DNA of 64,000 bases, taken from the NCBI GenBank assembly GCA_014904985.1, contig MU128914.1:186001-250000 (forward strand), in the 5' to 3' direction. Below, piece by piece: positions 49 to 50,045 of this stretch; the stretch's first letter is position 1, and each line of letters starts with the position of its first letter. This stretch comes from Hydnum rufescens UP504 (Eukaryota > Basidiomycota > Agaricomycetes > Cantharellales > Hydnaceae). Both the position numbers and the translations under genes were made by a program. Under the pieces are notes generated by a model that worked only from the letters and a program-made list of their open reading frames with translations, was not told the DNA's origin and did no database searches.

Positions 49-1746
49 TCCCCCGTTATATTCGAGTCGGCCTACTCGACACGTACGTTTGTCCTTAACC
101 GGCCGAAAGCTTTGAACGCACTCAACCACGAGATGCTCGACCTCCTCATTCCGAAACTCAAGGTAGTTCCTTACTGTATTCACCATCTCATTGAATTGAT
201 CATGAACACCGTTCCAAGGAATGGGACCAATCCGAATTGTGTAAAATAATTATTTGCCGCGCAAATGGACGAGCATTTTGTGCTGGTGGCGACGTGAAAC
301 GTATGTGATACTACACACTTGCATGCCACCGTAATAATGACGATAAATCCAGGTGTGAGAGAATTCTCTCTCAATCCCCAAACACTTAGTAGAGCCCTGG
401 GTTTCTTCCAAAAGGAGTCAGTCCTTGTTACACTCTTGAATTCCCGCCTTTAGTGCTCATCGTTCCTAGATTTCAACTGGATTATAATCTTGCAACACTT
501 TCAAAGCCATATGTAGCCGTTATGGACGGTATTACTTGTACGTGTGGTGGCTCCCTAGACCCCGCAGCTCCCTCCTGATAATACTCTGCACCAAATTATT
601 GTCACAGTCGGGGGCGGCGTTGGCATCTCGGCATATGCACCATATCGCATAGGAACCGAAAACACAGTGTTCGCAATGCCAGAAGTAAAACTCGGATACT
701 TTCCAGATGTCGGAGCCTCATATCTCCTTGCCCGACTAGACGGCGAGATAGGAACCTACCTCGCGCTCACGGGCAATTCAATATCGGGCTACGAAGTTTA
801 TCACCTCGGCCTCGCAACCCATTACATTCCATCTCGTCGCATTCCCTCCGTTCTGGAAAGACTCGGGGCTCTGGAAGCCCTGGGACCACATACGATCAAT
901 GAGACTTTGAATGAGTTCGATACAGAGCCGAGCTCGGCCCCAGAAGCGGAATCCCAACTATTGATCAGCCGAGGCGAGGTCCGCGTCGCCCTCGATCGTG
1001 CTTTCTCCCGCAAAGACGTCGAGAGCATCATTGCCGAGCTCGAAACGTTCGCTGCTCCCGAGTCTGTGCCGGTAGAACACCAAACTGAGGTGCAAAAGTG
1101 GGCACGGAGTACTCTGGATGCCCTGTGGTTGAGAAGTCCCACGAGCCTCAAGGTTACGCTCGAAGCTGTCCGCATCGCGCAGCGGGACGACTTCAGACTG
1201 AGCGATGCGCTACACATGGAAGTCGGTATTGCTACAGCTTTCGCCGTGCGCACTTTTTTTTTTTTCCCATCCTCCCGTTTTGTATGCTCACTCAAGCCTA
1301 TATATCTCATTTCTCATTTCCAAAAGTCAAGGGGCAGTCCGGATTTCGATACTGGAGTGAAGAGTGTGCTAGTGGACAAGGACCCAGCAGATAAACGACC
1401 TAATTGGAGCCCTTCCACAGTGGCCGAAGTGTCCCCGACGTATGTGCACGACACGTTCTTCAGCCAAACATCCCCATACGTCGTGTCCGCCCCTCGCGTC
1501 CACACGGAACGAACATCCGCCGAGATCAACTTGGGCTATTACGCCCTTCCCAGCGAGGATGATATTGGTACGTACGTGCTTGGGAATACCGGCGATAGTG
1601 GGGCGTCTGCAGTTTCGGCAGACGAAGTCGTTGCGCGTTTTGAAGCAAAGATGAGAGGGAAGAGCGGGGTGCGGTTCAAAGTGGAGGAGGTCCTTGCACG
1701 CCGATGCGAGACGATGAAGGAGGGGTGGTTGAAGTGGAAATACTAA
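49..1746 (+). CDS. 3-hydroxyisobutyryl-CoA hydrolase (enoyl-CoA hydratase/isomerase fold), 5' end missing
   Basis: Hydrolyses 3-hydroxyisobutyryl-CoA in mitochondrial valine breakdown. The gene is split by short introns. Exon 49-162 follows an AG at 47-48 and encodes RTFVLNRPKALNALN. Exon 219-300 encodes GRAFCAGGDVK. A small exon near 390-416 and exon 470-537 (LATLSKPYVAVMDGIT) follow. Exon 608-1245 carries GGGVGISAYAP, then TENTVFAMPEVKLGYFPDVG, the family oxyanion-hole and catalytic region. A final intron 1246-1326 (GTGCGC...AAAAG, 81 nt, a multiple of 3) can be read through without a stop; it separates GIATAFA from GSPDFDTGVKSVLVDKD, which are contiguous in relatives. The C-terminal RPNWSPSTVAEVS block is typical. 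Exon 1 with start codon and targeting peptide lies left of the window. One small exon between 301 and 416 is not placed exactly. Confidence 0.88.
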
Positions 1747-2948: not shown

Positions 2949-4384
2949 CTATAGAGAGAACCGTACGGTCCGCAGGCCTTGAAGTATGATATCAACGCAT
3001 GTTATCCACAAATCAGATGAAGTACGCACGGGATTACCCCGCGGTCCCACCGTACGGTACGACGTATTTGACAAGAAAGAGCTAGCCTCAGCCCTCACGA
3101 GCGCCCTAGTCATGAACCATGTGTAAGGCGAAGGTCGGATTCCGGCAGCGTCACTCGTGTTTCCAAAACGGATGCACTGTGCCTCCAACACCCAACACTG
3201 GAAGTTATCGCATCATAATGGGAACGCCAGACAAGCAATAGTGAACAGATTGGACCCACTCAATCGATGCCGAGATCTTTGTTCCAGGACTACCTCTTTG
3301 AGCAACCGCGAAGAGCCAGGCTTCAAGATTCGGTTGCTCTGAATCACGAGTAGCCTCGCCCGTCGCTGTCGGGGTTTTCGGACCGGTCTCTGTGGCAGCA
3401 TCGACGATAGTGTTCATGGTGAGGTTGATCAGTGTCTCAATAGGGTCTTTGTACTCAATTGTGGCTGGAAATCAGGGCCTGTCAGTGTGAGAATAGTCGT
3501 CCAACCAATAGCGCAGACTAGAAACCTCGGTCCACATATGTCGATTGCTTGCTCCCGCGTCGAGGGGCTTCTCACAACTAACTTTGACGACCTCCATTGC
3601 AGTCTCTTTGGCTCAACCCTCCCGTCCGACTACGTTACTACCAAGGGACCATGAGAGAACACTCTTCTTTCGCACCACAAGCTGGTCATACTTCAATGAT
3701 TGGAACTTGGGATACGGGAGGATACGTTGCCAGGAGTCAGTATAGAGACACCAGTTTCAAGAAAACTGATCAATATCCCCTCGTTGGCAAAGGTTCTGGA
3801 GGAGTATCCCATCTCGCTCAAAAACTCGACCTCCAGAAACTGGGGTCCTGCAGCACAACCTAGAGCCATGATAAATCACAATTTCTGGGGGGGCACACTG
3901 GATAAAAGGCAATGGCACACGCACCAAATAGCATGTTTTAAACACCATTTCCGCGCTCCTCTTGATGAACCCTTGTGCCGTTCGAAGATTCTCGATAACT
4001 CCACCAGCAAGTCCTGGCGAATCGTGTAGAATGAGTCGATGGCTGTCATCTGAGGCGAGTTCTTGATCAATACCACGTTGAGTGGCGTGATCATCGGAGG
4101 TTCTCTATCGCATGCATTGGGATCACATAATGTGGGATTTAGGGAGGTAAGGAGCACGTACAGCGAGGGTTTTGGCGCGGAATACTGCATTGATCAAAGA
4201 AGACTCCCGCTCCTGACTGCGAATGCTCTACAATGAGTGAAATGCACGGAAAGGATGCATCACTCACTTTACCCACGAATACCCCGAACCTAACGACGCT
4301 ACCTGAGCACTGGTAGAGGCATAGATGACGAATGTAGCATACCCAGAATCGTCTAGGAGAGAGCTGGTGATGGGTCTGAGCCAC
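2949..4384 (-). pseudogene. decayed P-loop GTPase (G-domain) gene
   Basis: Reading on the minus strand, pieces of a septin/HSR1-like fungal G-domain protein appear in the right order but in different frames. Near 4220-4157 is SSLINAVFRAKTLAV, the segment just after a Walker A. Near 4040-3990 is a switch-II-like HDSPGLAGG, near 3945 HAIWCVCHC, near 3690 YDQL (G4 region), and near 3330-3250 AVAQR...KISASIE, a C-terminal feature of this family. The Walker A reads SGAG, then shifts frame before SSLIN: two bases of the expected Lys codon seem deleted near 4208. Several further frame changes and stops occur. It is head-to-head with the better preserved paralogue at 4970. Known: such GTPases form multicopy families in Agaricomycetes. 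Inference: a dead copy. Confidence 0.6.
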
Positions 4385-4969
4385 GGGGAGTCCTGCGATG
4401 CGTTGATAGGATTGGTTGATGCTGTTAGTTGAACTATCGCAGTCTGGCGCGAAGTTTAAGTATCTGGATCAGTAGACTCCGCAATATAAGAGGTAGCTGC
4501 ACAATCCGGAGGAAACCCGGTGTCCCCAACGGAGAACTTGAAAACGGCATTATTGGCTAACAAATAGAATCCAGAGACAGGGTGCATCCTGAAGACACGC
4601 CGAGGCCCGTGCACAGTCTGATTAATCAGAAAGGAAGGTACAGAAAGCTACGGAAGAGGTGGATCCTCGCGAATCGGTCACGTGAAAGGGATTGTCACAC
4701 GTGTTTGACCAGAATCCATCCTTGTCACTCAGACAAAATCGGGCCGTGGTGGTAGGCCAGACCTGTTCCCAGAAGGGCCCTATCTCGAGGAAGCGGCCAT
4801 GGAGAAGTTTGTGTTTTTCGGACAGAAGCTAATCAAGTTGACATAACAGGAATGCTCTTGCTGCATCCCTGGCTTGTGACATTTTGTAGCATGTGCACGA
4901 ATGTATTGACAATAACATTGTACACACACCACCTACACGCCCTCTCTCTCCTTCTCTAGTCCATCAACC
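4385..4969. promoter_or_regulatory. divergent intergenic region between two GTPase genes
   Basis: About 585 bp between head-to-head GTPase genes. The 80 bp before the plus-strand ATG at 4970 is pyrimidine-rich (CACCTACACGCCCTCTCTC-like), as is common upstream of fungal start codons. No TATA box or repeat stands out elsewhere. Confidence 0.35.
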
Positions 4970-6235
4970 ATGTGGAAATATCTTCGCAAGCATTTTAAGC
5001 TCCCCAACAAACTCACCAAGAAAGAAGTCCCCGACGGAGACAGGGCCACCAGGCGCTTCAGGGTCCTCGTACTTGGACCGGCGAACGCGGGAAAGACCAC
5101 GCTGCTTGAACGACTAACTGACAGCCCCGCCGGCGAGGCTATAGTGACCCGGAACGGAAAACGTGTAATTACTACAGATATTTGAGCTCAGTAGAGATGC
5201 TGTTCTAATTCATCCCTTTATCTCTCAGATCACGGAGATCCCCAGGGGATATGATCAAGTAAGAACCACCCTATCAAAGGCACGCTGCGGTTACTTGATG
5301 TTTTCATACCACCTAGCGAGGGATCCACAGCATCGACGATGAAATCACTTACGAATCAAACCCTGATCTCGTTTTCCACGACTCTGGTGGTTTCGAGGCG
5401 CGAGGGGTCGAGGAGGTCGAGGCCGTCTGGCAATTTATTCGAAGGCGCTCGTTAGCTTCCCCTTCACAGCAGTTGCATGCGATTTGGTGCGTTTACATGT
5501 TGGTTCATACACCCTCACACTTGGATTCATCGATTGCTCTAGGCTCTGCATCCCAACCGGTAATGACAGGCCCTTTGGATTCCTGCAGTCAGGCTTTTTC
5601 AACGAGCCCACAGCGTCAGGTACGTCCCATGAGTCGCAGCATTCGATCTTTTCTCTTACGCACTGGTGCATGTGTCCGCTCAGTGCCTGTGATCGGGATT
5701 TTCACTAAGCTGGATGGAAGAGAGACGAAAATTATGACTGAGGTTCTTGGCCCTGCTCCTAAACCATCCGATTTCCTCGATCGTGCCCCGGAGGTGGAGC
5801 AAAAAGTGGCTGAATTTGTTAATGGACTCGAGACACAATTTCGGAACCAGCCGTACCCACCTGCTGGTTTTCTCACGGTTGGAAGTATGTATATTCTATC
5901 TGAGTAGCAATGTTTTACAGTTAACTTTTGGCTTAAGACATGCATGAAGTTACTGAGCGGAGCATAGCATTGTGCAACCAACTTCTTCAAGTGACTATGG
6001 ATGCTCTTCCCCATGAGACCCAGACATCATTGCTTGGCCTCACGGTTTGGAAAAGAAACCGCCGGATTCATACCATGTATGTTTTACAACGGTGAGTATG
6101 GATGCCCAATAGATTGATATTGGCTTACAGTCATGTTTATATCATAGAGTCCTTGAAGGTGGAGTTGAAGGTGCTGTCTCAAGCTGTCTCAATGAGATGA
6201 TGGTACAATTTGACTATGTTCAGGGAACATCATGA
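4970..6235 (+). CDS. P-loop GTPase (G-domain protein), multi-exon
   Basis: Start ATG at 4970. Exon 1 encodes RRFRVLVLGPANAGKTTLLERL, an intact Walker A (GPANAGKTT), at residues about 30-45. A short exon near 5228-5259 (ITEIPRGYDQ) is followed by GTAAGA. The next exon, from about 5320, gives RGIHSIDDEITYESNPDLVFHDSGGFEARG (switch region and G3-like DSGGFE) and ends QQLHAIW. Then comes an exon with IPTGNDRPF...SGFFNE, then, from about 5683, VPVIGIFTKLDGRETK (G4 = TKLD). Later exons encode MHEVTERSIALCNQLL and, from about 6149, VLEGGVEGAVSSCLNEM, with stop TGA at 6233-6235. Introns are 40-90 nt with GTAAGA, GTACGT and GTGCGT donors. The stop overlaps by 4 nt (ATGA) the start of the microexon ORF downstream. 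Substrate and role unknown beyond GTP binding; exact exon borders are partly inferred. Confidence 0.72.
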
Positions 6236-9200
6236 CCAAAGCTCCAGGACCTGGGGAAGATGAAGAATCCCAGTTATGTGCAGATAGAAGGTTCAGGATT
6301 CTCATGGTGGGTGACTGCAGGTTGTGAGCAGTGTATTGACTATCTCATATGTTGTAACTGCAACAACTGGTGATACATCATTGGTTTGTTGGATGGCATT
6401 GACAACATAGGAGGTATAGCCACACTAACATTCAGTTTGTAATGACTGACTCACATGTTTCTTTGTGGCATTGACAACATAGTTGGTCAGTCTGGATCTC
6501 CAAATTTGATACACAGTGTCTAGCTGATGCATTTGTTGATGCCATTGGGAATGCAGTATGTGAGTGGATCTCCCACCATTGGATACATGGTCATTTGCTG
6601 ATACAGCTTCTGCTGGAATTTTCAATGCAGGGGGTGAGTTTACATCTCTTAGTTAATGTGAGGTTGCTGGGTGTATATCTTTTGGTGGCATGGATAACAT
6701 AGCATGTAAGTATGCATTTCCCACCTTTGGATCCACACTGTCCCTGGCTGATATATCCCTCTGTGAAATTGATACTGTAGGAGGTAAGACTACATCTCAC
6801 AGTTTGGTATATGTTCACTACCTGATAGAACATTTGGTGGCATGAACAACATAGAATGTGGGTTGGTTTCCCCTACTATTTGATGTGTGATGACTGACCC
6901 ATAGACCTTTTGGTGGCATGGACAATGCAGGATGTAGGTCTGCATGTCTTGGGATTTGATGCTTAGTTGCTGACTGGCAACCCTTTTGTTGGCATTCACA
7001 ATGTAGTATGTGAGTGTGGATTCAATATGAGGTCCATGGCTGACATATTATTGGATGGGATGGGTAAAATAGGAGGTGAGTCCAGGTCTCCCAGCCTTCA
7101 TGGGTGGTTTCTGGCCAGTGTGTAATTTGGTTGCATGGACAATGTAGTATGTAAGTGAGAATTTCCTATAACTTAGCACATGCTCACTGGTTGATCTGTT
7201 GTCTGATGGCATGGACAATGTAGGAAGTAAGGCCAGGTCTCTTTCAATTTGATGCACATGGGCAGGCTGATATTTCCTTCTCTGTCATGGACAATGTAGG
7301 CTGTAGGTCCAGGTCTCTCACAAATGTGTGGTCTCTCATTGATACATTGTCTGGTCAACAGCTGCAGCCTGTGAGTTTCAATATTCCCCAATTTGATGTG
7401 TGGCTGGCTAACACATTTTGGTGACACTGATAATGCAGGATGTAAGTCTGGATCTCCTCCCCCTTAATGCACTGTCACTATATGACACATCACTGGATGA
7501 TATCAACAATCAAGAATGTGGGCACCTATGGAATTTTGTGTGTGACCATTGACTGATCCATCTTCTGGTGGTATTCACCATGTAGCTGGTGGGCAGCTTC
7601 TCTTACAATTTCAAGCAGGATCAGTGACTGATACATCAATGGGTGGTATTCACAATGTAGGATGTGAGTCTGCATCCCCCACACTATCATTACTTGCTAG
7701 CTGATATATTTTTCAATGTTGTCCACAATGTAGGCTGTAAGTCTGGTTTTCCTCAATGCAATGCACATGTGCAGGCTGATACTTCTTTCTCTGACATGAA
7801 TAATGTAGCAAGTAAGGCTGGATGTCCCACAACATAATGCATGGTCACCATCTGATACATTGTTTGGTCCCATTGAAAATGTAGTATGTAAGTTCAGATC
7901 TCTTCTGATTCAAAGTGGGATCACTGGCCAATATATTCTTTGCTGACATTAATAATGTAGCATGTAAGTTGTGATCTCTGCTACCTTGCTGCACAATCAC
8001 TGGCTGACATATTTCTGGATGGCATTAACAACAAAGCAGGTAAGCCTGGCTTCCTTTTGATCCAGTGTGTGGTGATTGGCTGACTCACCAATTGGATCAA
8101 CAATGTAGCTGGTGGGCCATGACCCTGCACAATTTGATGCTGCTGGCTGATTCATCATGTGGTGGCATTGACAATTTAGGAAGTGAGTTGCATGCCCCAT
8201 CTAGTGTATTGTTGGCTGAGACATTGCCTGGGGATATCAAAAATGTAGGAGGTATGTTGGGATCTCTGGCAATTTGATGCAAGGTCACTGGCTGATACAT
8301 TGTTTGGTGGCATGGCCCATGCAAGGTGGTGAGTTCTCATTTCCCATCATCCATGGCCCTTGGTTGATATGCCTTTGGGTTACACTGTCACTACAGTATG
8401 TAAGTCCAGATCTCATACTGATCAATGCATGATTTCTGTCTGACTCATTGTCTGGTATCTCCAACACAGAGGGTAGGTCTGGAGCTTTGGATTCCATACA
8501 ACACTGCTGGGTGAATGATCTATTGGTGGTGTTAATAACATAGAAAGTAAGATGAGGTCTGTTAGAATTTGATGCAGGGTGCCTGGCTGATAGATTGGTT
8601 GGTCACCTGAACACTAGGATGTAAGCACATATGACCCTCTATCTGAAGAGTGGTTAGAAGTTGACACATCTTTGGGTGGGATTGATAATGTAGGAAGTAA
8701 GTGTGGATATCCCAGAATTTGATGCATTTTCCCTTGCTGATTCATCTTTTGGTGACCTTGACAACATAGCTTGTGAGTGTGGATGTCTCAGAATTCAATG
8801 CATTTCCCCTGCCTGATTCATCTTTTGGTGGCATGGACAACATAGCTTGTAAGTGTGGATTTGTTAGAATTCAATGCATTATCCCTTGCTGATTCATTAT
8901 TTGGTGGCATTGACAACATAGCTTGTAAGTGTGGATGTGGTAGAATTCAATGTATTGTCCCTTGCTGATTCACCTTTTGGTGGCATTGACAACATAGCCT
9001 GTAAGTGTGGATGTGTTAGAATCCAATGCATTGTCCCTTGCTGATTCATGGCATTGGCAACATAGGGTGTAAGTCTGGATGTGTTCAAATTCAATGCATT
9101 GTCCCTTGCTGATTCATCATTTGGTGCTATTGACAACATAGCTTGTAAGTGTGGATGTGTCAGAATTCAATGCATTGTCCCCTACTGATTCACCTTTTGG

Positions 9201-11433
9201 TGGCATTGACAACATAGTTTGTAAGTGTGGATGTGTTAGAATTCAATGCATTGTCCCTTGCTGATTCATCTTTTGTTGGCATTGACAACATAGCCTGTAA
9301 GTGTGGATGTGTTAGAATTCAATGCATTGTCCCTTGCTGATTCATCTTTTGGTGGCATTGACAACATAGCTTGTAAGTGTGGATATGTTAGAATTCAATG
9401 CATTATCCCTTGCTGATTCATCTTTTGGTGGCATTGACAACATAGCATGTAAGTGTGGATGTGTTAGAATTCAATGCATTGTCCCTTGCTGATTCATCAT
9501 TTGGTGCTATTGACAACATAGTTTGTAAGTGTGGATGTTTTAGAATGCAATGCATTGTCCCTTACTGATTCATCTTGTTGTGACATTGACACCATAGCTG
9601 GTAAGTGTGGATGTGTTGGAATTCAATGCATTGTCCCTTGCTGATTCATATTTTGATGGCATTGACAACATAGTGTGTAAGTGTGGATATGTTAGAACTC
9701 AAAGCATTGTCCCTTGCTGATTCATCTTTTGGTGTCATTGACAACATAGCGTGTAAGTGTGGATGTGTTAGAATTCAAGGCATTGTCCCTTGCTGATTCA
9801 TTATTTGGTGGCATTGACAATGTAGCATGTAAGTGTGGATGTGTTAGAATTCAATGCATTGTTCCTTGCTGATTCATCTTTTGGGGCATTGGTAACATAG
9901 CATGTAAGTGTGGATGTGTTAGAAATCAATTCTCAATTCATTGTCCTTTGCTAATTCATCTTTTGGTGGCATTGACAACACAGCATGTAAGTGTGGATGT
10001 GCTAGAATTCAATGCATTGTCCCTTGGTGATTCATCATTTGGTGGCATTGATAACATAGTTTGTAAGTGTGGTGTGTTACAATTCAATGCAGTGTCCCTT
10101 GCTGATTCATCTTTGGTGGCATTGACAACATAGCATGTAAGTGTGGATGTGTTAGAATCTAATGCATTGTCCCTTGCTGATTCATCTTTTGGTGGCATTG
10201 ACAACATAGCTTGTAAGTGTGGATTTCTTAGAATTCAATGCTTTTTCCCTTGCTAATTCATCTTTTGGGGGCATTGACAACATAGGATGTAAGTGTGGAT
10301 GTTTTAGAGTTCAATGCATTGTCCCTTGCTGATTCATCTTTTCATGGCATTGACAACATAGCCTGTAAGTGTGGATGTGTTAGAATTCAATGCATTGTCC
10401 CTTGCTGATTCATCTTTTGGTGGCATTGACAACATAGTGTGTAAGTGTGGATGTCTTGGAACTGAAAGCATCATCCTTGAAAACTCATCTTTGATGGTCT
10501 TGACAACGTAGAAGGTAAGTCCAGATGTCTTGCAATTCAATGCATCATCTCTTGTTGATTCATTTTTTGATGTCATTCCCAATGCAGCCAGTAAGTTCAG
10601 ATGCCTTAGGATTCAATGTATCACTGCTTCCTGATGTCTTACTTGGTGGTTTTGCCCATATAGGAGGTCAGCCCACATCTCCCACCCCTTCAATCATGAT
10701 CTCTCAATCTCTTCCTTGGTGGCATGTATGCCTTAGGATGTATGTCCACATTTCTGACTATTCAGTCTATGGTCCCTGGCTCACACAGATTTTTCTGATA
10801 TTTACAATTCAGCTTGTGAGTTCCTCAATCTATAAATGCAATCATATTCTGTTTTCCAACTGCTCTCCTTACAATTTCATTTATTGCAGTATAATGTAAG
10901 TCATATCTAATGTGGCAAACCCAAATGAGTCTGTCAATTGAAATCTTAATCATTGCTCACCTGTGGCTTCATTCTATCTGGTAAATATTGTCAATCATCA
11001 CTTCCAACCTTATCCCTATCTCACATAAGTTTTATTAGGTGCTCAAATATGCAGGGGAGCAAGGCCTGTGTGCCCTTCCTCAAACTATTGGTCAGTTTAG
11101 GTTTCATTAATTTCCCACCTCCAGAAGCATCTAAGCATTCATTATAGCATCACCAATCTATCCCATCCAATGAGAATGTTCAATATCTGGTGTTTATTTG
11201 TTGTCAGTGTTGAGACTGATTCTAAGTGCACAGGAGATTGCTTATCTTGGCTTGTTAAACTAGTGGTTGTCCTTTGGATTAGGGAGGGGGGGGTTGCACA
11301 TTTTCCTGATGAACACACAACTGCTAGCTCTATTGAGTACCAGATCAAGGATGATGGAGGTCTACAGGGATCTGCTTCATTCACCATTGCAAGGAAACTT
11401 GCTAAGATCATTGATGTATATACTGCCTTGTAG
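6232..11433 (+). CDS. microexon gene: 61 three-nucleotide exons in one predicted ORF
   Basis: Exon 1 (6232-6320) opens with ATG and encodes an acidic N-terminus, then RRFRILMVGDC, resembling the segment just before the Walker A of the neighbouring GTPase (RRFRVLVLGPANAGKTT). It is followed by 61 repeats of AG|NNN|GT in which every exon is exactly 3 nt, one 6-nt exon (10890-10895), a 36-nt exon (11055-11090) and a terminal exon (11148-11433, TAG). The pieces sum to 600 nt = 200 codons, with no internal stop, and the frame entering the array matches the 95-codon terminal exon. All introns sit in phase 2. The microexon-encoded part is very hydrophobic, with about 24 consecutive F/L/I/V/C/N-type residues; this partly follows from the third base of most microexons being T. 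The Walker A itself is absent. The product is unknown. The 159-nt intron 10896-11054 is the least certain join. Transcription and splicing are inferred. Confidence 0.5.
6324..8696 (+). repeat. diverged tandem intron-like repeats (33 units)
   Basis: Consecutive units of mostly 66-87 nt, each starting GTRNGT-like (GTGAGC, GTAAGT, GTGAGT, GTAGGT, GTAAGG, GTATGT and similar) and ending ATAG, GTAG, GCAG or CAAG, with CTGAY near the middle. The bodies differ greatly from one another, yet the spacing from the AG of one unit to the GT of the next is 3 nt in every case. Examples: microexons GTT 6321-6323, GAG 6411-6413, TTG 6483-6485, TAT 6557-6559, GGG 6631-6633, CAT 6703-6705. None is a stop codon in register. 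This older half of the array conserves only what a spliceosome would read. Confidence 0.8.
8697..10440 (+). repeat. homogeneous 76-bp tandem repeat (73-nt intron-like unit + 3-nt exon, about 23 copies)
   Basis: Unit begins GTAAGTGTGGATGTG, contains TTGCTGATTC (a CTGAY branch-point match about 30 nt before the end) and ends TGACAACATAG, followed by 3 nt such as CTT, CCT, CAT, TTT, TGT, CGT or GAT. Copies are near identical, so this half of the array expanded recently. At 73 nt the intron-like part is not a multiple of 3, so retention of any one copy would shift the frame. Confidence 0.85.
10441..11147 (+). repeat. diverged 3' flank of the intron array
   Basis: Five further units with diverged bodies and microexons AAG, CCA, GAG, GAT and CTT, then TATAAT (10890-10895). 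The grammar then changes to longer exons: a 159-nt intron (GTAAGT...ATGCAG), a 36-nt exon at 11055-11090, and a 57-nt intron 11091-11147 (GTCAGT...TATAG). The old-young-old arrangement suggests that expansion happened in the middle of the array. Confidence 0.65.
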
Positions 11434-11626
11434 GCATTAAGTACAATACCTGTATCAAATGTGGTGTCCTCCAATTTCATTGTGCTCAATCCTCATCTCT
11501 GACAAGCTTTATAATCAATAGGCATCATTTTCCCCTCAAGTGGAGATTGAAGCTGAAGTCATAGGTGATGCACTACATTACATGTAATGTCTCAAAGTTG
11601 AAATTGTGGACACAATGGTATATTTG

Positions 11627-41584: not shown

Positions 41585-42110
41585 CAAGTTGACCCCCCCG
41601 CCTCGCGAGTTGACTCCCCCCCCTTGTGAGTTGACCCCCCTCCCACCTCGCGAATTGACTCCCCCGCCTCGTGAGTTGACGCCCCCCCTCGTGAATTGAC
41701 TCCCCCGCCTCGTGAGTTGACGCCCCCCCCCTCGTGAGTTGATGCCCCCCCCCTCGTGAGTTGACCCCTCCCCCACCTCGCGAATTGACTCCCCTGCCTC
41801 GTGAGTTGACGCCCCCCCTCGCGATGACTCCCCGCCTCGTGAGTTGACGCCCCCCCCCCTCGTGAGTGATGCCCCCCCCTCGTGAGTTGACCCCTCCCCC
41901 ACCTCGCGAATTGACTCCCCCGCCTCGTGAGTTGACGCCCCCCCTGCGAGTTGACCCTCCCCACCTCACAATTGACTCCCCTGCCTCATGAGTTGATGCC
42001 CCCGCCTCGTGAGTTGATGCCCCGCCTCGTGAGTTGATGCCCCTGCCTCGTGAGTTGACCCCCCCACCTCGTGAGTTGACTTCTCCGCCTCACGAGTTGA
42101 CGCCCCCACC
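41585..42110 (+). repeat. 21-bp coding minisatellite (PPPRELT)
   Basis: About 24 units of CCCCCGCCTCGTGAGTTGACG with variable C-run length (5-9 C). The varying runs break the frame several times. The antisense frames are open over long stretches (Gly/Arg-rich) and are shadows. Confidence 0.85.
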
Positions 42111-42404
42111 CCGCGAACCGAGTCCTCGTGTGCTGACCCCCCCTCGATGTCTGGACCGTGATGAGGAGCAGAGGGCTCATAAGAGGGTAGATAGTGAGTA
42201 CTATCCTTTTGTCTCGAGTGTTCTGTGGTACCAGGACAAAGTGCTTATCATTCATGCTTGGGGTCTCCAGGCAACTCTAGGTCAGACGATCACCCTCGCT
42301 CTCAGCTCTTCTCGCTCTTCTCATTCCCATTCTCGTCCTGCATCCCGTTCTCGTCCTCACTCCTGTTCTCCGTCGATATCGCATCCCGCTCCCCGTCGAA
42401 TCGC

Positions 42405-48791: not shown

Positions 48792-50045
48792 GACCACACA
48801 CCCGCCACAGCGGGTGTGTGGTCATAAGGTGAGTTTTTTTTGCTTGTAGATACAATGGTGCAAAAAGAGCAGCGAAGCTGCTCTTTTTGTGCCTCTTTGA
48901 ATCTTTTTACTAACATATCTTGTATTCTTCTAGATTGAGACCTGGGGTCTAAGGCACAACGAAAACCCGCAAAATGAGGGCCCAAATGGCAACACCCCGA
49001 ACGAGGATGCCCCAAATGACATGACATACGGCAATGCGCCCACCACACGACATACGGCATGGCACCAAGGACGCGACATACGGCACCATGCCCACAACGC
49101 GACACACGGCACCACACCAATGACACAACACACGGCACCACGCCAATGACACGACACACGGCACCATGCCAACGACACAACACATGGCAACACGCCAAAC
49201 AGCATGATACATGGCAACGCCAAACGACATGATACACGGCAATGCGCCAAATGAGGACGTGACGTATGGTAACATGCCAAACGAGGACGCGACCGTGCCA
49301 TATGAGGGCCCCAGGAACCACACACCTGCCATGGTGGGTGTGTGGTCCTATTTAAGGTGAGTCACTGCCCCTGTAGCTACAACCACACAAAAAGAGCAGC
49401 AAAAGCTGCTCTTTTTGCGTGGTACTTAATTCTTAACTAATTTATAACTTTCTATTATAGGTCTTTACTTCTCGCACCAACAAATACCGACACAACCCCC
49501 CCCCTCCTGACCCCACCTATCAACACCTGAGCGACAGGGTCCTGGGGGGACCCGCACAAACCGCCGTGCATGAGCCGGAGTACGGTCCCAGTACCCCACA
49601 CCCGCTGCAGCAGGTGTGGGGTACTACAAGGTATTTTTTATTGTTTCATTTCTTATTCTCGTGGCGCAAAAAGAGCAGCATATGCTGCTCTTTTTGCGTT
49701 GCATTGATTCATTTTTTACTAACCTATTGTTATTTCTCTAGATCCTGGCCAGAACCCACCCGAACCCCCAACCATAAACCCACGGAACGACATGCTGCGA
49801 ACGAAACCCACGAATGACCCCCCACAAACGAAAACCGCAGGGAGGACCTATACAACCCGCCGTATGTATGAACTGGAGTACAGGGCCTCAGTACCCGACA
49901 CCCGCTGCAGTGGGTGTGGGGTACTGCAAGGTCAGTTTTCTTTTTCTTCTTATTTTTTATTCTTGTGGCGCAAAAAGAGCAGCGTAAGCTGCTCTTTTTG
50001 CACTGCATTACTGTTCAACTAATCTTTCATTTTAAATTTCTCTAG
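48792..50045 (+). repeat. right arm of palindromic element 2: four hairpin-intron modules
   Basis: Introns 48829-48933, 49357-49460, 49631-49741 and 49931-50045 (104-115 nt), with donors GTGAGT, GTGAGT, GTATTT and GTCAGT, branch matches CTAAC/CTAAT and acceptors TTCTAG, TTATAG, CTCTAG and CTCTAG. Intronic hairpins at 48861-48889, 49386-49421, 49665-49698 and 49970-50001. Exonic hairpins at 48792-48823, 49318-49345, 49591-49624 and 49891-49924 end 5-11 nt before each donor. The exon 48934-49356 holds imperfect repeats of a CGACACACGGCACCA type. No frame stays open across all exons. Confidence 0.78.

Follow-up and report, generated by a model that had tools for sequence, protein, structure and literature searches.

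A predicted P-loop GTPase gene of the basidiomycete Hydnum rufescens with about sixty apparent single-codon exons

Can some sixty consecutive codons of a gene each occupy an exon of their own? This question is raised by a locus of Hydnum rufescens UP504 that lies in a stretch of 64,000 nucleotides (nt), hereafter the window (C6:186001-250000, contig MU128914.1, of a 63.2-megabase assembly with 539 contigs). The original prediction had proposed here a gene with a long chain of 3-nt exons. Our analysis indicates that the window very probably holds one of about 50 paralogous P-loop GTPase genes, in which roughly 60 codons close to the C-terminus would be encoded as one-codon exons and spliced one by one.

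Results

A chain of apparent 3-nt exons in the window

On the plus strand, 60 exons of 3 nt span positions 6411-10815, each placed between AG and GT and separated from the next by an intron of 63-80 nt; a 6-nt exon follows at 10890-10895. The array is composed of these parts:

6411..8696, plus strand: single-codon exons 1-32 with their introns, conserved head, peptide ELYGHENDYEYEAPDNLDAQYHQLEEVYRKDE (chain finding, paralog comparison, gene model)
8770..10438, plus strand: single-codon exons 33-55 with their introns, hypervariable middle, mostly near-identical units of 76 base pairs (bp) (chain and repeat analysis)
10512..10815, plus strand: single-codon exons 56-60 with their introns, tail KPEDL (chain and paralog comparison)
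10890..10895, plus strand: 6-nt exon, found between AG and GT in all nine arrays compared (see below)

The array and its hexamer were thus recognized correctly at the outset, while the count of 61 triplets was one too high, as the junction 'AG GTT GTGAGC' at 6319 is no exon border. The claim of an unbroken 3-nt spacing held up well. The arrangement AG-NNN-GTRNGT occurs 48 times at 6301-10900, as compared to a mean of 0.68 and a maximum of 3 in 200 dinucleotide shuffles, and every alternative distance from AG to the donor between 0 and 12 nt is found there only 0-3 times. A chain finder (our own scoring script) returned 61 junctions on the plus strand of the window; no chain of at least 6 junctions was found by it on the minus strand or outside the array. 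As the script scores 3-nt exons only and prefers GTRAGT donors and steps of 74-77 nt, its counts lean towards canonical units, and units with exons of another size or with deviant junctions appear as gaps. Part of the array (8667-10577) is a 76-bp tandem repeat with 85% matches. The first 2.3 kilobases are more diverged than this part and retain the 3-nt spacing.

The array belongs to a paralogous gene family

A two-unit pattern (CTGAT..TAG-NNN-GTRAGT..CTGAY) gave 1015 matches genome-wide, as compared to 2 for the reversed pattern. Among the approximately 100 of these matches that were listed, all lie in the array family except for one on contig C7. The exons preceding the array, two per gene, gave 79 matches in the genome, the last exon was found at 53 places among 71 matches, and the G-domain exon (5317..5486) at 49 places with E values of 2.9e-21 or better. 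Judging from these numbers, we estimate that the family has about 50 predicted members. Arrays were verified at 31 distinct loci, comprising 28 of 30 pattern loci in which a chain was found, minus three second views of the same genes, plus six others; for the shorter loci L050 and L059, the chain finder returned no chain. The contigs C123 and C339 may carry alleles: they differ in 4 of 29 triplets (4 of 87 bases, one difference being synonymous) and at 26 of 2453 other sites, an excess in codons that is suggestive only.

For junction counts we employed nine arrays with 599 canonical junctions. L036 and L037 (irregular) and L030 and L035 (short or broken chains) were left out of this set, and in L068, L069 and L070 the first part of the array is missing.

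Two further observations concern the search patterns. A dispersed, near-identical repeat on several contigs, CTGACTCTAAAAGAAYGTATGT, matches the first search pattern and is unrelated to the arrays. On viral contigs, the same type of pattern occurs in at least 120 stretches; among the matches listed, there was one match per stretch and the longest chain had 6 junctions, and we read these matches as chance.

Splice signals are preserved while introns drift

Across the first 16 triplets of 28 loci, the AG and GT dinucleotides are 99.5-100% identical and donor position 5 is 96.5% identical, compared with 78% for the intron bodies. Counted as parsimony changes per column, this corresponds to 0-0.06 for AG and GT and 2.1 for intron bodies. 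For 15 of the 16 junctions in the head, 27 or all 28 of the loci have an intact copy; the sixteenth was unreadable (0 of 28) owing to an alignment gap inside the donor, where six strings begin with AGTATGTGAG. The introns of the nine arrays measure 55-83 nt. Their donors follow GTRAGT in 68% of cases, and a CTGAY motif is present in 66% of them (1.9% for the reversed motif), located at a median of 29 nt before the intron end.

Nine gaps in the chains of these nine arrays hide 10 units. Seven of them read AG-NNN-GCAAGT, one is a 6-nt exon (L034) and two have broken acceptors. The change from GT to GC is one that spliceosomes tolerate at the donor. The bias towards GC donors among the deviant junctions therefore points to function.

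The triplets read as a conserved peptide

Read as codons, the triplets yield ELYGHENDYEYEAPDNL in the window, ELYGCEKDYEYGERKWL in L029, ELYGNENLYEYGPDNL in L032 and ELYGCENDYEYKASDNL in L033. Triplets of different loci align as ELYGxExxYEYKxPDNL.... This head comprises about 32-36 codons, ends with LExxYRRDE or a similar sequence and passes into a middle part of variable length. The middle is followed, in the majority of arrays, by a tail (for example KPEDL or QPEDL), the 6-nt exon and VLKYAGxQGLCALPQT or a similar sequence. With the acceptor of the last exon that all nine arrays share, the frame is open from the triplets through the 6-nt and 52-nt exons to the stop codon in each of them. None of the 599 triplets is a stop, where base frequencies predict 14.1; limited to the 188 triplets that end with A or G, the expectation is 6.2 (none seen).

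The 16 aligned head codons changed very unevenly, with 0, 1, 1, 1, 11, 1, 8, 7, 0, 2, 0, 6, 9, 11, 8 and 6 changes at their first two positions. The variance of these counts is 17.1, versus 5.3 for adjacent intron bases (P ~0.00025 by resampling). Their mean is close to the rate of the introns (4.5 versus 4.1 changes per two bases); the coding signal thus consists in this unevenness and not in a general slowdown. Our division into conserved and variable head codons was made post hoc, and the dispersion test is independent of it. Nearly frozen codons beside codons that change faster than introns form, as judged from the alignment, the pattern of a genuine protein and not of a repeat.

Taken together, the conserved head peptide, the near-invariant AG and GT amid drifting introns, the lack of stop triplets and the GC donors make it very likely that the single-codon exons are spliced and translated. 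The comparison of paralogs hence strongly supports the original proposal of a gene in which about 60 single-codon exons form a chain.

Gene model and predicted protein

The hand-built model extends from the ATG at 4970 to the TAG at 11433 with 71 exons, GT-AG introns and no internal stop. In an alignment of seven loci for the 5' flank of the array and nine loci for the 3' flank, both flanks consist of ordinary exons:

4970..5164, plus strand: exon 1, start codon and P-loop GPANAGKT (hand-built model; weak Arf and MMR_HSR1 matches below cut-off)
5229..5258, plus strand: exon 2, phase 0, GT-AG (hand-built model)
5317..5486, plus strand: exon 3, DxxG-like motif HDSGG (hand-built model; the G-domain exon counted above)
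5543..5619, plus strand: exon 4 (hand-built model)
5684..5884, plus strand: exon 5, TKLD motif (hand-built model)
5938..6091, plus strand: exon 6 (flank alignment, exon search, hand-built model)
6148..6170, plus strand: exon 7 (flank alignment, hand-built model)
6224..6306, plus strand: exon 8, ending ..FRILM, donor GTGGGT, in paralogs mostly GTGAGT (flank alignment, model, paralog donors)
11039..11090, plus strand: post-array exon of 52 nt, VLKYAGEQGLCALPQTI.. (AG and GT in nine of nine arrays)
11264..11433, plus strand: last exon in its most likely extent, stop TAG at 11431-11433; in-frame alternative acceptor 30 nt upstream (11234) (paralog acceptors)

This model departs from the original prediction at both ends. 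The gene had been taken to begin at 6232 with a first exon 6232-6320; its ATG lies well upstream, and exon 8 ends with ATG|GT at 6306 in 28 of 29 loci, mostly with GTGAGT. The remaining locus, L044, was omitted from the head alignment because the exon-end pattern missed its donor. With exon 8 ending at 6306, each triplet forms a whole codon (phase 0), which replaces the proposed frame with split codons. Downstream, the exons 11055-11090 and 11148-11433 give way to 11039-11090 and, most likely, 11264-11433 (or from 11234). With its frame, first exon and last exons all wrong, the proposed 200-codon reading is not the product; the predicted protein has 446 residues with the last exon from 11264 and 456 with 11234.

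P-loop GTPases are characterized by the motifs GxxxxGK[ST], DxxG and [TN]KxD. In the model protein, GPANAGKT, DSGG and TKLD were read by eye, the last of which, in exon 5, we take to be the motif typical of GTPases. No Pfam GTPase family matched above its curated cut-off (Arf 18.4 of 22.3 bits, MMR_HSR1 17.5 of 21.9 bits), and NACHT, NB-ARC and ANK were not among the Pfam matches to E = 0.1. Matches in the PDB were weak, with G-alpha chains best (E 1.9e-5) and EngA and Arf-like proteins next. Judging from its motifs, the gene is predicted to encode a protein that starts with a P-loop GTPase domain.

In the vicinity of the gene, the window contains a gene of the enoyl-CoA hydratase family (ECH_2) upstream at 559-1746 (plus strand), and a region at 3757-4104 (minus strand) with a resemblance, at 33% identity (E 2.75e-5), to the G-domain exon of the array gene itself. 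Distant G-domain matches also stand head-to-head with members of the array family on C273, C133 and C32, and divergent GTPase gene pairs may therefore be common. Other minisatellites of the window, with units of 21 and 26 bp, lie at 41587-42116 and 49018-49251, respectively.

Middle codons vary far more than their introns

The middle of the arrays was investigated in units that measure exactly 76 bp and agree with the majority string of their own array at 80% of the positions or more. In most arrays, codon positions 1 and 2 vary far more than the intron, and position 3 comes close to the intron in uniformity. For the 35 units of L036, identities are 0.96 for the intron body and 0.26, 0.45 and 1.00 for positions 1, 2 and 3; the corresponding values for the 19 units of the window are 0.89 and 0.49, 0.29 and 0.80. 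In L070, position 3 is variable as well (0.57). In the middle of this locus (C127:37200-44000), codons for Q, E, D and L (CAA, GAA, CTT, GAT) abound, unlike in the middles of its close paralogs L068 and L069, and each array gene seems to favour amino acids of its own.

We further compared units of the same gene whose 62-nt intron cores are identical. Of 76 such pairs, 57% differ at position 1, 50% at position 2 and 4% at position 3; the same comparison for body columns, each left out singly, gives differences of 2.5% on average and 35% at most. As these pairs are not independent, we also counted by clusters: for 20 clusters with 53 units, the minimum number of changes is 8 at position 1, 7 at position 2 and 2 at position 3, compared with 0.5 per body column (maximum 5). 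One cluster of L036 contains 10 identical cores with 7 different codons, every one ending with T. Not one of the 599 triplets has C as its third base, though 2.6% of intron T sites show a T-to-C change; this suggests a constraint on the exon end as a part of the donor. Strong diversifying selection on amino acids and a focused mutation process fit the pattern of the middle codons alike.

Evidence against the model and alternative explanations

Several points weigh against our interpretation. Splicing and translation are predicted from the DNA sequence, and conservation is seen among paralogs of a single genome. About a third of the introns lack CTGAY, and the two broken acceptors read AA in L070 and probably AC in L033. 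In L036 and L037 the array is irregular in places, and each locus shows one apparent stop triplet there. The hypervariability is not uniform, as position 1 of the seven units of L034 has an identity of 0.71, near that of the body (0.77). In L037, moreover, the codon is the same in all ten pairs or clusters with identical introns; without this locus, the counts of 8, 7 and 2 changes are unchanged over the remaining 10 clusters. At the 3' end, the acceptor at 11234 is AG in only five of nine arrays and leads into an in-frame TGA in four of nine. The start of the last exon at 11264 is preferred because an in-phase AG is shared there by nine of nine arrays, yet it was selected after the problems of 11234 had been seen. 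Finally, array lengths are uncertain because the assembly is poor in part (C439, irregular and apparently indel-rich, was dropped) or gapped (C123 has a gap of 6773 bases).

As a separate observation on L037 (C47:37000-46500), about 30-35 single-codon units are present twice, the second copy with irregular junctions. This doubled stretch is either a large duplication of units or an assembly artefact.

The alternative that fares best concerns how much of the array is used. Each mRNA might take up only part of the codon exons, so that a single gene would give a combinatorial set of C-termini, and for this we see an even chance. Since every small exon is one phase-0 codon and none is a stop, any order of splicing and any omission keeps the frame, and stepwise or alternative splicing would therefore be tolerated. 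Alternative splicing is also reported, in the passages on truffles cited below, for NACHT-ANK genes. The conserved head codons, however, suggest that at least these are regularly included.

It is unlikely that near-identical introns, in the manner of introner-like elements, invaded an older, ordinary exon and came to lie between its codons. Such an origin would agree with the finding of identical introns that flank different codons. It leaves the exact 3-nt spacing unexplained, however, and likewise the third base T, which equals the intron in uniformity in several arrays whose first two bases vary; among the approximately 100 matches listed, moreover, all but one lie in the GTPase family. Neither a protein search nor a DNA pattern allowing up to one mismatch found an uninterrupted copy of the head peptide, spliced or ancestral, in the same genome, a weak negative given that these searches had no positive control.

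Still less probable is a family that is mostly dead or dying, with arrays expanding without function. The broken acceptors in two of nine arrays, the irregular L036 and L037, and the TGA that four of nine arrays would meet behind the upstream acceptor of the last exon speak for decay. The window gene, however, is open from ATG to stop, as are all nine arrays to the stop with the shared acceptor, and the rigid head codons and the 599 triplets free of stops likewise speak against decay.

We rejected a minisatellite inside one large intron, with splice-like motifs as relics of the repeat, as very improbable. The 76-bp repeat accords with it, but even diverged units hold AG, GT and the 3-nt spacing while the remainder drifts, and a relic repeat would explain neither the absent stops nor the GC donors nor the conserved peptide.

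Least credible of all, and rejected as well, is that the introns matter and the exons do not, as in a tandem host of small RNAs: repeated introns of this kind are known at the SNORD115/116 locus (PMC11608373, in the passages available), but the codons are conserved and free of stops, and an Rfam search over 4900-11600 gave no match to E = 1 that would indicate a cluster of introns resembling those of small nucleolar RNAs.

Discussion

How the array may work and evolve

Under the interpretation that we favour, single-codon exons joined in a GTPase mRNA, each intron of 63-80 nt would be recognized as a unit (intron definition) and removed, so that codons are joined one by one. Exon size need not be limiting provided that adjacent introns are not assembled at once, as short introns would be recognized singly. 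Tandem multiplication of an existing intron together with flanking exon bases has been described (PMC4974935), and such a process could yield an array of introns plus three bases. Tandem duplication and exchange of intron-plus-codon units would then change array length and make the introns alike; the differences between codons would be maintained by diversifying selection or by a focused mutation process. Stepwise or alternative splicing may itself diversify the protein. By analogy, the likeliest role of the middle part is that of a recognition surface, since the same logic is known for the repeat domains of fungal non-self receptors.

We tentatively put forward a more specific possibility, which we would not yet back over its alternatives. 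The arrays may constitute a genomic codon library, in which a focused process, be it extreme diversifying selection or targeted mutation, rewrites the first two bases of mostly NNT codons far faster than the introns, unit duplication sets the length and splicing picks subsets, independently of the NACHT-ANK case in truffles. A triplet of the form NNT cannot be a stop. If true, this would represent a codon-by-codon diversity generator in fungi.

If confirmed at the RNA level, about 60 consecutive 3-nt exons in one gene, with similar arrays in some 50 genes of the genome, would provide a hard test of the spliceosome below the size of exon definition. The family also supplies a large set of natural arrays for measuring selection codon by codon, with the introns of each array as the reference. 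Genes of this design would probably escape gene prediction programs.

Comparison with known systems

The locus had been thought to be without described counterpart. The original source on codon-sized microexons in the NACHT-ANK genes of truffles is, according to the papers that cite it, said to be Iotti 2012. These citing papers ascribe to the NACHT-ANK family of Tuber melanosporum 'tens of codon-sized microexons' or 'dozens of 3 bp mini-exons' that are alternatively spliced (PMC3689799, PMC4986451, PMC10197012, PMC9815663). Arrays of codon-sized exons are thus not unprecedented, and what appears new, as far as these sources tell, is their occurrence in an unrelated GTPase family and in a basidiomycete. 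Among the matches listed from the open-access literature, such arrays were found in no GTPase family and in no basidiomycete.

As described there, both systems share dozens of 3-bp exons in the C-terminal part, an expanded fungal family of P-loop nucleoside triphosphatases and a proposed diversification of a recognition domain. Compared by description only, without truffle exon sequences, they differ in that the protein of our family is a GTPase, carries a TKxD motif and matches neither NACHT nor ANK, and in that its host is a basidiomycete. Two matches to DUF6533, a family with matches in 0 of 14 control genomes, accord with a basidiomycete host.

The available accounts of three further systems each show a part of this design. 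In the WD-repeat genes het-d and het-e of Podospora (PMC1805685, PMC9815663), repeats are likewise homogenized within and between loci except for a few variable positions, which there are under positive selection; there, however, the unit is a protein repeat, whereas here the homogenized part is the intron and the variable part the whole exon. Fungal introner-like elements and repeated stwintrons (PMC4457414, PMC9860276, PMC9024468) also form families of near-identical introns in one fungus, but are scattered over many genes instead of standing in tandem with one codon between them. Isolated exons of the same size, 3 nt, are reported for RPS24 (PMC12686416) and for lipS of Dactylellina haptotyla (PMC5639578), with one or two per gene, in contrast to the tens in a row here. 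A second family that is unrelated to the truffle genes yet built in this way would suggest that codon-by-codon exons evolved convergently, for the diversification of proteins.

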